DNA from: Bradyrhizobium guangxiense
GTDB taxonomy: Bacteria > Pseudomonadota > Alphaproteobacteria > Rhizobiales > Xanthobacteraceae
Length of the DNA: 64,000 nt
NCBI RefSeq assembly: GCF_004114915.1
Contig: NZ_CP022219.1
Location: 1,456,501-1,520,500, forward strand
Direction: 5' to 3'
The translations under genes and the position numbers were made by a program. Positions within the stretch are counted from its first letter, which is position 1. Every line of letters begins with the position of its first letter. This document shows positions 35,912 through 38,810 of this stretch, in pieces. The notes below the pieces were generated by a model. The model was not told the DNA's origin. It searched no databases and was given only the letters and a program-made list of their open reading frames with translations.

Positions 35912-36217
35912 CTATTCCTCCGGCTCGGTCGTGAACAGCAGCGGATAGCCCTTGGCGCGGCCGGCGTCGGTGGCGCGCGTCGCCTTGGTCTCGGCGACGT
36001 CCTTGGTGAACACCGCGACGACGCAGGCCCCCAGCTTGTGCGCGGTGATCATCACCTTGTAGGCCTGATCCTCCGTCATGCGGAACTCGGCCTTCAGCAC
36101 CATGGTGACGAATTCGCGCGGCGTATAGTCATCGTTGATCAGGATGACCTTGTGCAGCCGTGGCCGCTCGACCTTGGTCTTGGTCCTGGTTTTCGGCTTG
36201 GTGACGGTGTCGTTCAT
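35912..36217 (-). CDS. clpS: ClpS adaptor protein (ClpS2-like)
   Basis: The 101-residue protein binds the N domain of ClpA and delivers N-degron substrates. The N-degron pocket is intact: VILINDDYTPREFVTMVL with the Asp pair, MTEDQAYKVMITAHKLGACVVAVFTKDVAE and its helix face. The shorter, basic N-terminal tail and KGYPLLFTTEPEE end fit the second, ClpS2-like, alphaproteobacterial paralog. It lies 42 bases downstream of the DUF190 gene on the same strand, so read-through from the fluoride operon is possible. It is convergent with the cyclase gene. Confidence 0.9.
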   Translation of the reverse strand: MNDTVTKPKTRTKTKVERPRLHKVILINDDYTPREFVTMVLKAEFRMTEDQAYKVMITAHKLGACVVAVFTKDVAETKATRATDAGRAKGYPLLFTTEPEE

Positions 36218-36259: not shown

Positions 36260-36601
36260 TCAGCTCGCGGCCTTCTCACCATATTGCAGGACCTGCACCT
36301 TCTCCAAGGTGATCAGCCCGCTCGACATCATGCCGTCCAGGATGGGCAGGAATGCGTTGACGTTGTCCTCGCTGTCGACGATCTCGATCAGCAGCGGCAA
36401 ATCTTCCGACAGCCGCAGGATCTTCGAGGTGTGCAGCCGACTCGACTTGCCGAAACCCATCGGCCCGCGCAGCACTGTGGCGCCGGCGAGGTGCAGCTCG
36501 CGCGCCTTGATCACAATCGCTTCATAGAGCGGCTTGCCTTCGAAATGGTCGCTCTCGCCGATGAAGATCCGGAGCGAAACTGCCTGATTGGGAATTTGCA
36601 T
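36260..36601 (-). CDS. DUF190 (PII-like) protein of the fluoride operon
   Basis: The 113-residue protein has a ferredoxin-like fold typical of DUF190: LRIFIGESDHFEGKPLYEAIVIKARELHLAGATVLRG with a GFG switch, then LPLLIEIVDSEDNVNAFLPILDGMM. DUF190 proteins are often found with crcB. It starts just two bases from the crcB1 stop, so it is part of the operon. Its role is unknown, perhaps sensing or modulating the channel. Confidence 0.85.
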   Translation of the reverse strand: MQIPNQAVSLRIFIGESDHFEGKPLYEAIVIKARELHLAGATVLRGPMGFGKSSRLHTSKILRLSEDLPLLIEIVDSEDNVNAFLPILDGMMSSGLITLEKVQVLQYGEKAAS

Positions 36602-36603
36602 GC

Positions 36604-37026
36604 TCAGCTCCTTGTCAAGCGGTTGTAGCGGTTCGCCATCATATGACCGATCCATACCGACACCAGCCAGCAGATCACGGATGCGGCGATGTAGGCGAGC
36701 GCGGTGTATTTCATTCCGCCGTGGAACAGGCGGAAGGTCTCCAGGCTGAAGGTCGAAAAAGTGGTGTAGCCCCCGCAGAACCCGGTCATGACGAATTGCC
36801 GGTGCTCGGGCCGCGCCAGCATGCGGCCGTCGGGGCCGGTCAGCGTCGCGTAGAAGCCGATGATCAGCGATCCCGTCGCGTTGATGAACAGCGTCGCGAA
36901 GGGAAAGCCCGGCCCGGTGTCGAGCGTAAGCCCGACGAGATAACGCGTCAGGCCGCCGACGATGCTGCCGGCGGCGACCCAGGCATAGAGCAGCGCAACG
37001 CGCCAGCGCTCGGCGGGAGAGTTCAT
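36604..37026 (-). CDS. crcB: Fluoride exporter CrcB/Fluc, subunit 1
   Basis: The 140-residue protein has four transmembrane helices. Signatures: GGLTRYLVG in TM1, the LFINATGSLIIGF region with the conserved Asn in TM2, and GFCGGYTTFSTFSLET in TM3, with both phenylalanines of the Phe box. It dimerises in dual topology to form a fluoride channel with a central Na. Here it likely pairs with the second crcB six bases upstream. Confidence 0.93.
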   Translation of the reverse strand: MNSPAERWRVALLYAWVAAGSIVGGLTRYLVGLTLDTGPGFPFATLFINATGSLIIGFYATLTGPDGRMLARPEHRQFVMTGFCGGYTTFSTFSLETFRLFHGGMKYTALAYIAASVICWLVSVWIGHMMANRYNRLTRS

Positions 37027-37032
37027 CGGCCT

Positions 37033-37422
37033 CTAGCCTCCCAGACCGTCCGCAAGGACGAAGCCGCAGCTGACGGCGGTAAGGCACAGTCCGACCGAGA
37101 ACAGGATATTGCCGAGCGCATGCATCGGCTCGCCGCTGCGCGCAAGCGTCAGCGTTTGCAGGCTGAAGGAGGACACCGTGGTGTAGCAGCCGAGAAAGCC
37201 GGTGACCGCGAACAGCCATGGGTTGGGCGATGCGAATACCGAACCAGGATGGGTTGCCAGCGCGCCAAAGATGCCGATCAGGAAGGCGCCGGTGACATTG
37301 ATCGTCATGGTCCCCCAGGGAAAGGTTTCGCCGAGCCGACGCGCGATCACACCGGAGACGAAATAGCGCGCGCAGCCGCCGAGGGCGCTGCCGATCATGA
37401 TCGCGATTGCCCCGCTCAGCAC
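37033..37422 (-). CDS. crcB: Fluoride exporter CrcB/Fluc, subunit 2
   Basis: I take GTG 37422, with GGGGGAG upstream, giving about 129 residues. The longer frame would overlap the MFS gene. It has four helices with GCARYFVSG in TM1, TMTINVTGAFLIGIF in TM2 and GFLGCYTTVSSFSLQT in TM3. In the Phe box the first Phe is Val (TTVSSFS), while the second is kept. That asymmetry is expected in heterodimeric Fluc pairs. It lies 19 bases after the MFS stop. Confidence 0.9.
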   Translation of the reverse strand: MLSGAIAIMIGSALGGCARYFVSGVIARRLGETFPWGTMTINVTGAFLIGIFGALATHPGSVFASPNPWLFAVTGFLGCYTTVSSFSLQTLTLARSGEPMHALGNILFSVGLCLTAVSCGFVLADGLGG

Positions 37423-37441
37423 GATGAACGCTCCCCCGTCA

Positions 37442-38650
37442 TCATTTGTCCTTCGTTGCGAGACCGTCGCCGACGGCCAGTAGCCCCAGCAGCGAAACCA
37501 GCGCGAAGCCGAGCCCCGCAAGGAACGTTCCTGCCGGACCATAGGCGTCCCACAGCGCGCCCGCGATCACGCTCGCGGCCAGCAAGGCGAGGCCGGTGAA
37601 CAGGTTGAAATAGCCGAACGCGGTGCCGCGCAGGCTGGGCGGGGCAGCGTCGGCGACTAGGGCCGAGAGCAGGCCTTGTGTCAGTCCCATATGCAGCCCC
37701 CACAGCACGACGCCGAGCGCGAGGCCGGCAAGGCTTCCCAGCAGTGCGAGCGCGAGATCGGCACACGCGAGGAAGACGAGGCCCAGCGCGAGCAGGCCGG
37801 TGCGGTTGATCCGGTCCGAGAGCACGCCGGCCGGATAGGCCGACAGGGCGTAGACGATGTTCATCAGCACCAGCACCGCCGGCACCCACATCGCATTGAG
37901 CCCGATGTTCTGTGCGCGCAGGATCAGAAAGGCCTCGCTGAAGCGCGCGAGCGTGAAGACGACGCCGACGGCCACGACACGCCAATAGACCGCTCCGAGC
38001 TGCCGCATCGCGGCGACATTGAGCGGATTTTTGGCCGGCTCTCGGCTCGGATCCGGCTCCGGCTCGCGCACCGCAAACGCGATCAAGCCGAAGGACAGGA
38101 AGGCCGGCAGCACCGCCACCCAGAACACGGCGGCAAAATTGTCCACCGTCCACCACATCAGGCCGATCGCCACCAGCGGCCCGACGAAGGCGCCGAAGGT
38201 GTCGAGTGATTGCCGCAGGCCGAAGCTCGCTCCGCGCAGGCCGGCGGGGGCGATGTCGGCGATCAGCGCATCGCGCGGCGCGCCGCGAATGCCCTTGCCG
38301 ACGCGATCGACGAAGCGCGCCGCCACCAGCCATCCGACGCTGGGTGCAAGCGGGAATAGCGGCTTGGTCGCGGCGGCGAGGCCGTAGCCGAGCGCGGCGA
38401 GCAGCTTGCGGCGGCCGAGCCAGTCCGACAGCGCGCCGGAAAAGATCTTGGTGATCGAGGCCGTCGCCTCGGCAATGCCCTCGATGAAGCCGACGGTCAG
38501 CGTCGAAGCGCCGAGCACGGTGACGAGATAGACGGGCAGCAGCGCGTGGATCATCTCGGAGGAGATGTCCATCAGCATCGAGACGAAGCCGAGCACCCAG
38601 ATTCCCCTGGGCAACCCCGCACGCTCGGCATTCGGTGTCGTCGTCGTCAC
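37442..38650 (-). CDS. MFS transporter, first gene of the fluoride operon
   Basis: About 402 residues from GTG 38650. I reject GTG 38689 because it lies inside the riboswitch terminator stem. Twelve helices can be counted. TM1 text LGFVSMLMDISSEMIHALLPVYLV, a motif A-like GALSDWLGRRKLL after TM2, and RVGKGIRGAPRDALIADIAP are seen. The latter loop is found in a group of MFS proteins of unknown substrate. Position directly behind a fluoride riboswitch suggests a role in fluoride or fluorinated-compound stress, not proven. Confidence 0.85.
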   Translation of the reverse strand: MTTTTPNAERAGLPRGIWVLGFVSMLMDISSEMIHALLPVYLVTVLGASTLTVGFIEGIAEATASITKIFSGALSDWLGRRKLLAALGYGLAAATKPLFPLAPSVGWLVAARFVDRVGKGIRGAPRDALIADIAPAGLRGASFGLRQSLDTFGAFVGPLVAIGLMWWTVDNFAAVFWVAVLPAFLSFGLIAFAVREPEPDPSREPAKNPLNVAAMRQLGAVYWRVVAVGVVFTLARFSEAFLILRAQNIGLNAMWVPAVLVLMNIVYALSAYPAGVLSDRINRTGLLALGLVFLACADLALALLGSLAGLALGVVLWGLHMGLTQGLLSALVADAAPPSLRGTAFGYFNLFTGLALLAASVIAGALWDAYGPAGTFLAGLGFALVSLLGLLAVGDGLATKDK

Positions 38651-38675
38651 GTCCTCGCCTTCGTCGCCGGACAAC

Positions 38676-38697
38676 AAAAAACCCGCCACCGGCGGGG
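38676..38697 (-). terminator. Riboswitch-controlled intrinsic terminator
   Basis: On the minus strand CCCGCC, loop GGT, GGCGGG and then six T. It lies 51 bases after the aptamer and just ahead of the MFS GTG. This is the expression platform expected for a fluoride riboswitch that acts by transcription termination. Confidence 0.82.
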
Positions 38698-38747
38698 TTG
38701 TCCATGCTCCCGCCGAAGGCAGAGGCTCAATGAATGCCCCTCCTCAA

Positions 38748-38810
38748 GCAGGAGTCATTAGCCCACCACGGTCATCGACCGCCGGGCGGTTATCGGGGGA
38801 CTCCATCCCC
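38748..38810 (-). promoter_or_regulatory. Fluoride riboswitch (crcB motif)
   Basis: The minus strand reads GGGGATGGAGTCCCC, then GATAACCGCCC, a small hairpin, and GGGCTAATGACTCCTGC. This matches the crcB aptamer as recalled from known examples. P1 is GGGG/CCCC; the pseudoknot is GGAGTC with GACTCC; the second stem is GCCC/GGGC. Fluoride binding keeps the terminator at 38676-38697 from forming and so turns on MFS-crcB-crcB-DUF190. Confidence 0.93.

Follow-up and report, generated by a model that had tools for sequence, protein, structure and literature searches.

A fluoride riboswitch operon with a leading major facilitator superfamily gene and a putative heterodimeric Fluc in a clade of Bradyrhizobium

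The fluoride riboswitch senses inorganic fluoride. Among the closest described systems, the FRM operon of Enterobacter cloacae (PMC5533749) is a riboswitch-led multigene fluoride operon in which crcB is joined by a further gene annotated for transport, and the twin Fluc of Lactobacillus acidophilus (La1/La2; PMC3755343) is encoded by tandem homologous genes whose products have opposite charge bias. Here, we describe an operon that has both of these arrangements. It lies on the minus strand of a 64,000-nucleotide stretch of Bradyrhizobium guangxiense (contig NZ_CP022219.1, positions 1,456,501 to 1,520,500; hereafter the window, which supplies the coordinates used below), and it differs from the FRM operon, as far as the main text of that paper goes, in containing a major facilitator superfamily (MFS) gene and a DUF190 gene. 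On balance, and with moderate confidence, we read it as a fluoride-inducible resistance operon encoding a heterodimeric Fluc, into which the MFS gene was recruited as an ancillary exporter easing one of the consequences of fluoride stress. Judged by its riboswitch, terminator, gene identities, conservation, selection and family contexts, all read from sequence, it is a real operon of a known kind.

The leader contains the sole RF01734 match found in the 8.2-Mb genome, and its score of 52.2 bits led us to reject a chance match. A preliminary description of this DNA, prepared from the letters alone, had placed a fluoride aptamer at 38748-38810 (minus) and had named the Rfam crcB covariance model as a check; that model, once run, exceeded its curated cut-off over a slightly longer interval (Table 1). 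The terminator that the description put between the aptamer and the MFS gene is likewise present, at 38696-38682. The pattern scan that located it is weak evidence by itself (2 found, 2.0 expected from shuffling). The region 38668-38712 has a folding energy of -20.5 kcal/mol (z -1.94), and the terminator (CCCGCC..GGCGGG, then T) is kept in all 41 of the distinct orthologous leaders analyzed, which are 41 of 43, since the aptamer pattern used missed L098 and L114.

A putative antiterminator element, GGCGGGAG, also recurs in the 41 leaders. In folding predictions in which the conserved 3' strand of the aptamer was free, that strand paired with the GGCGGGAG region, and when the strand was blocked to mimic the bound aptamer, GGCGGGAG paired with the 5' arm of the terminator. 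As modeled, this pattern is the logic of fluoride-ON antitermination. We infer that without fluoride, transcription would stop at the intrinsic terminator, and that fluoride binding would hold the conserved 3' strand of the aptamer, freeing GGCGGGAG to pair with the terminator 5' arm and allowing read-through into MFS-crcB1-crcB2-DUF190. Weighing against this scheme, neither the terminator pairs nor the antiterminator pairs show compensatory change: the former are invariant, and one of the latter has a one-sided change in 3 of 41 leaders. The hairpin between the two has 734 standard cells of 778, with a double change in one pair, and covariation therefore does not decide the leader mechanism. 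The expression platform thus combines a terminator and an antiterminator-like element in every leader analyzed, without covariation support.

Downstream of the terminator, the MFS gene is followed by crcB1, crcB2, the DUF190 gene and then clpS. The order of the first four is the one given in the preliminary description, and Pfam bears it out: among the five window proteins scanned, MFS_1, CRCB, CRCB and DUF190 all scored over their cut-offs. The gaps between these four genes, of 19, 6 and 2 bases, are as would be expected in one transcript. Of two further open reading frames (ORFs) here, one of 429 amino acids (aa) at 37416-38705 lies in a different frame, and one of 415 aa has its GTG start, at 38689, inside the terminator, for which reason that start was rejected. 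A 319-aa ORF at 36260-37219 is the DUF190 frame extended upstream over crcB2 and part of crcB1.

Table 1. Features of the fluoride-switch operon and its downstream neighbor, in window coordinates
Feature	Coordinates	Strand	Remarks
Fluoride riboswitch aptamer, RF01734	38742-38819	minus	Rfam, full model (1-64); 52.2 bits, gathering cut-off 34; E 1.4e-11
Putative antiterminator element GGCGGGAG	38707-38714	minus	Able to pair with terminator 5' arm; GG[CT]GGGAG in 41 of 41 leaders
Intrinsic terminator, CCCGCC-GGT-GGCGGG-TTTTTT	38682-38696	minus	6-bp G+C stem, T6; pattern scan
MFS transporter, 402 aa	37442-38650	minus	Likely GTG start at 38650; Pfam MFS_1, E 8.5e-38
crcB1, Fluc subunit, 129 aa	37033-37422	minus	Box TTVSSFS; probable GTG start at 37422; termini predicted outside, orientation inferred from charge
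crcB2, Fluc subunit, 140 aa	36604-37026	minus	Box TTFSTFS; termini predicted inside, orientation inferred from charge
DUF190 (COG1993) protein, 113 aa	36260-36601	minus	Pfam E 1.7e-39; solved homologs 2dcl, 1o51
clpS	35912-36217	minus	Downstream neighbor, not counted in the fluoride unit; in all 20 long-aptamer loci examined

Both CrcB proteins match Flucs of solved structure, and as products of adjacent homologous genes they look like the two subunits of an antiparallel heterodimeric Fluc, a channel that would release fluoride. We infer this assembly from charge. The difference in lysine plus arginine between the two sides, counted with crude loop limits, averaged -1.5 for the CrcB1 type and +4.4 for the CrcB2 type over 13 distinct tandem pairs, and +0.9 for single CrcB proteins (21 of 22; L230 left out). 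The window pair has opposite biases, with counts of 0 versus 3 in CrcB1 and 5 versus 3 in CrcB2. Over the 13 pairs, the CrcB2 type was positive in every case and the CrcB1 type was negative in 11.

Two intact pores would call for two box Phe residues in each subunit (F82/F85 of Bpe), and CrcB1 has Val for the first. The same Val is found in all 13 paired CrcB1 proteins and in 42 of 42 loci whose CrcB1 shares over 50% identity with that of the window (a count that includes some strains twice), and Phe is kept at this position in 22 of 22 single CrcB proteins, although a partner more than 1.5 kb from a "single" CrcB could have been missed. In a protein search with CrcB1, the best 120 of 7324 matches were at least 88% identical, and the names given were Bradyrhizobium. 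In the E. coli Fluc, the first and second Phe are described as lying in different pores (PMC5417652); by that placement, one pore of the window pair would keep both Phe residues and the other, lacking one, would probably be inactive. The partner Phe of that same pore is lost as well in L066 and L243.

Several observations run counter to this picture of one good and one dead pore in a pair of opposite charge bias. Two of the 13 CrcB1-type charge values are positive; in L223 and L231, CrcB1 has also lost its second Phe, which belongs to the other pore, so that each pore there lacks one; and the window CrcB1 has Gln at the E88 position and Asn in transmembrane helix 4 where CrcB2 has Tyr. The table in PMC8315801 gives Gln at E88 as tolerated. 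For the first Phe, the same table lists several substitutions without fluoride permeation, Met as tolerated and, in one older row, Ile as retained, and Val is not among its entries. The idea of one dead pore is not new, as Last and colleagues describe La and Sa heterodimers that keep three of four box Phes and in which one pore may be dead (PMC5636608). The window pair likewise keeps three of four. The residue replacing the lost Phe is Val, always in CrcB1, across the alphaproteobacterial set, where PMC5636608 names Leu or Met; what our alignments add is this uniform Val in alphaproteobacterial CrcB1-CrcB2 pairs, a consistent set to place beside the published proposal that heterodimeric Flucs may keep one good pore only.

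Of 60 genomes searched, 31 (counting that of the window) have an ortholog of the MFS gene. An Rfam riboswitch lay just upstream in all 18 other loci with an MFS at least 83% identical, and in none of 11 loci at 56-78% identity. Fifteen of the 18 carry crcB1, crcB2 and DUF190, and three carry one different crcB without DUF190. Because this sample had been drawn with the MFS protein, a second was taken from riboswitch positions. A search of the genus gave 174 of 242 genomes over the RF01734 cut-off, and 40 loci were chosen by hand among the matches listed, some of them from strains already in the earlier sample. Where the aptamer match was long (75-80 nucleotides), this MFS gene came first and clpS lay downstream in 20 of 20 hand-picked loci; where it was short (60-62 nucleotides), an MFS match was found in 0 of 20. 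The operon comparison that the preliminary description had proposed thus places the MFS-first layout as common to a Bradyrhizobium clade. Its remark that the MFS gene is no part of the simple crcB unit also holds, as in L055, L086, L091 and L248 a fluoride riboswitch leads crcB1-crcB2-DUF190 with this MFS absent. In L090, a riboswitch precedes crcB. A fluoride riboswitch with an MFS gene in first position was not found in print in searches of an open-access library.

Against five orthologs, the ratio of nonsynonymous to synonymous substitution rates (dN/dS) was 0.11-0.20 for the MFS gene, 0.07-0.22 for crcB1, 0.11-0.32 for crcB2 and 0.09-0.18 for DUF190, so that the MFS value is within the range of the neighboring genes. 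Beside the MFS gene, the channel module (single crcB versus pair) has likely been swapped repeatedly. Mapping this label on the MFS tree needs 7 changes, of which well-supported branches require just 2; label shuffles gave values as low in 67 to 74 of 500, which makes repeated swapping likely rather than proven. Short DUF190-like pieces lie between the single crcB and clpS at L103:6634-6732 and L271:2631-2723, as if a single crcB had there replaced a crcB pair with DUF190.

We turn to the origin of the MFS gene. A scan of named genomes for its relatives gave at least 586 loci, of which the best 80 were kept. In 25 of these 80, all Bradyrhizobium, crcB lies beside the MFS gene, and 24 of the 25 have the riboswitch just upstream; in the other, L101, the contig ends there. 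The remaining 55, from Alpha-, Beta- and Gammaproteobacteria and a Gemmatimonadaceae metagenome-assembled genome, had no crcB match in flanks of up to 5 kb and no riboswitch adjoining the MFS gene; L164 has a riboswitch 4.7 kb away. In a tree of 131 of 137 sequences (L082, whose aligned part contains a stop, L001, L038 and L045-L053, whose places were already represented, and identical sequences were dropped), all 43 riboswitch-linked MFS proteins fell into one Bradyrhizobium group of 47, together with L101 and three unlinked sequences. A more careful tree of 46 rows joined the linked rows and L101 in one clade against two unlinked rows, with support of 99/93. These trees would fit a single recruitment in an ancestor of the Bradyrhizobium clade. 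Many independent recruitments are not favored by the trees in this sample, in the larger of which the unlinked rows L021, L115 and L118 are unresolved near the base of the group.

One recruitment would also suit an MFS gene that is a mere passenger, caught under the riboswitch by chance, still doing its old job and induced by fluoride for no reason, and so would the riboswitch-crcB units without MFS in other lineages. However, the gene is present in 20 of 20 long-aptamer loci, has a dN/dS of 0.11-0.20 in five comparisons, and has a relative in L066, from a genome of another family, where the same MFS family is joined to the fluoride genes in the different order MFS-DUF190-crcB1-crcB2. We therefore consider a chance passenger fairly unlikely. 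None of the five Rfam matches before the L066 operon at E values up to 10 is RF01734. Two further loci bear on the question. In G473 (L177; G473:C6:3207795-3207857), the first open frame behind a fluoride riboswitch is an MFS with no significant similarity to that of the window, and in G877 (L218, L247), a divergently placed MFS, 32% identical, lies next to a crcB pair. Although each of these supporting loci is one case, they make a functional link between MFS proteins and fluoride more likely than chance.

The neighbors of the unlinked relatives were picked by a codon-composition rule instead of a gene finder. The upstream set comprised 50 of 51 loci (L156 was out for length; L134, L160 and L161 had no MFS pick, and L140 no upstream pick). 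The upstream neighbor was ChrB_N in 8 of 50 and the downstream neighbor PAP2 in 5 of 51, some of these from near relatives; these are the relatives' commonest neighbors, though most relatives have neither. Sixteen of the 106 plasmid records with a match were examined. ChrB stood directly upstream, or upstream by one small gene, in 6 of them; within a distance of two genes, 8 had a PAP2, DedA/PAP2 or undecaprenyl-diphosphatase gene and 3 had DmeF. Metal, oxyanion and envelope-stress genes are thus frequent companions of this MFS family, although different genes flank most chromosomal relatives. Counting against the explanation favored here, 42 of the 50 unlinked upstream neighbors are not ChrB, and the neighbors vary, with an M20 peptidase in the sister group and FTR1, RND or MprF genes on plasmids. 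Because of this variety, "metal or oxyanion exporter" is a lean. ChrB is seen in relatives, and was not found beside the window MFS among the five proteins scanned.

Individual loci illustrate the range of these contexts. An Rfam chrB-a RNA (RF03078) lies next to the MFS gene of one unlinked relative (L072:2866-2948). In a Bradyrhizobium sister group, an M20-type peptidase gene identified by Pfam immediately precedes the MFS homolog (L049:7462-8694); this adjacency recurs in L050, and a homologous frame is present in L046-L048. On a plasmid of Bradyrhizobium sp. SK17 (L203, NZ_CP025114.1), ChrB-MFS-RND genes precede crcB and a phosphoglycerate mutase gene by 5 kb.

The AlphaFold2 model of the MFS protein (mean pLDDT, the predicted local distance difference test score, 91.1) and the MFS_1 profile together predict a DHA1-like transporter. 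In Foldseek, the nearest PDB folds were MFSD10/TETRAN, NorA, YajR and LmrP (best match each, E 1.4e-12 to 4.7e-11; query template modeling score 0.78-0.81). Fourteen NCBIfam families matched and none reached its cut-off, for example TIGR00880 at 55.3 versus 131 bits. Across the linked and unlinked proteins combined, conservation exceeds 90% at thirty charged positions. The linked clade is marked by fourteen positions; nine of these, including Arg224, fall within the central loop or its end or at the C terminus, and the remaining five, including Tyr347 and Phe351, are hydrophobic or aromatic. We read the protein as probably keeping most of its old substrate range under a new inducer. The residues peculiar to the linked clade argue the other way, as Arg224 is present in 98% of its members and is mostly Trp elsewhere, and together with the aromatic pair Tyr347/Phe351 they make a changed substrate possible.

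The same residues (L98, R224, A295, Y347, F351 and L380 among them) can be cited for a bolder proposal, that the MFS protein evolved from a ChrB/PAP2-linked resistance MFS by capture under the fluoride riboswitch and became a dedicated proton-coupled exporter of fluoride or metal-fluoride, working uphill beside the passive Fluc. The gene's constant first place behind the switch in the long-aptamer loci, while the channel varies between pair plus DUF190 and single crcB, would agree with this. Yet crcB accompanies the MFS gene in all 20 of those loci, and the conserved charged residues are the same in relatives without crcB in the flanks examined. We regard a dedicated exporter of this kind as distinctly improbable; were it real, it would found a third family of fluoride exporters, besides Fluc and CLC-F.

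Export of a fluorinated organic compound, which the preliminary description had offered for the MFS gene, fared worse. Organofluorine breakdown could be accompanied by intracellular release of fluoride, and the nearest folds include organic-anion and multidrug exporters. Nevertheless, the riboswitch senses the inorganic ion, and no organofluorine enzyme was present among the five proteins scanned, to which the search for one was confined. Moreover, relatives of 56-80% identity, nearly all without fluoride genes in the flanks examined, retain these conserved charged residues, and ChrB, PAP2 or metal genes often lie beside relatives that share them. This is the least supported of the readings, and we hold it to be very improbable. 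The other suggestion of the description, that the MFS protein supports the channel in some other way, is close to the explanation we favor. In that explanation, the MFS protein would be a DHA1-like secondary exporter recruited from a family often found beside ChrB, PAP2/DedA and metal-efflux genes, would most likely export an ion or anion disturbed by fluoride, namely, a metal, an oxyanion or phosphate compound, or a metal-fluoride complex, and would support the channel without replacing it.

DUF190 recurs beside fluoride genes, as it adjoins a crcB pair also in L055, L086, L091, L275 and L292, and in L087 and L088 lies near a riboswitch-linked gene resembling the Na/H exchanger of L174. A 4.3-Mb genome of the same genus has 11 fluoride riboswitch matches, 10 of them in L084 (G065:C15:8000-27999), L085 (C15:28000-35901) and L086 (C134:36000-46500), and one of these 10 precedes crcB1-crcB2-DUF190. 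Three fluoride riboswitches lie within 4.3 kb in L087 (G034:C63:206000-220000), one of them before a MutS-domain protein (Pfam on L054), with an antiporter-like gene, DUF190 and, by eye, an enolase-like sequence nearby. At the phylum level, 9 of 41 ORFs picked as first genes behind riboswitches were Pfam scanned, and several of those picked seem to be in the wrong frame. Behind fluoride riboswitches in five genomes belonging to one genus (L175, L176, L197, L198 and L200), the first open frames look alike and are of 230 aa; that of L175, the one of the five scanned, is weakly NifU_N-like by Pfam.

This operon offers a conserved and genetically simple case of fluoride sensing coupled to a second transporter. 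It points to ion, oxyanion or phosphate balance as a physiological partner of fluoride efflux, and it connects a defined inducer with a poorly characterized MFS family whose members on plasmids lie beside genes for chromate and metal resistance. Among known transporters, the DHA1-type NorA, LmrP and YajR and the organic-anion transporter MFSD10 share the fold of the window MFS at only 16-20% identity. In contrast to CLC-F antiporter systems, no Voltage_CLC domain was found among the five window proteins scanned. ChrP of Cupriavidus metallidurans pMOL28, an MFS induced with a chrB-containing operon (PMC2864759), is a known parallel, whether or not of this MFS family, and pMOL28 was not among the matches listed (60 of 106 plasmid records). 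With the known systems of the crcB motif (RF01734), the operon shares an aptamer scoring over the cut-off, a terminator and crcB genes; it departs from them in its first gene, as neither MFS nor facilitator appears in the main text of PMC11139923. By its sequence, this MFS-first arrangement, fixed in one clade, is a lineage-specific variant of those systems with traceable family contexts.

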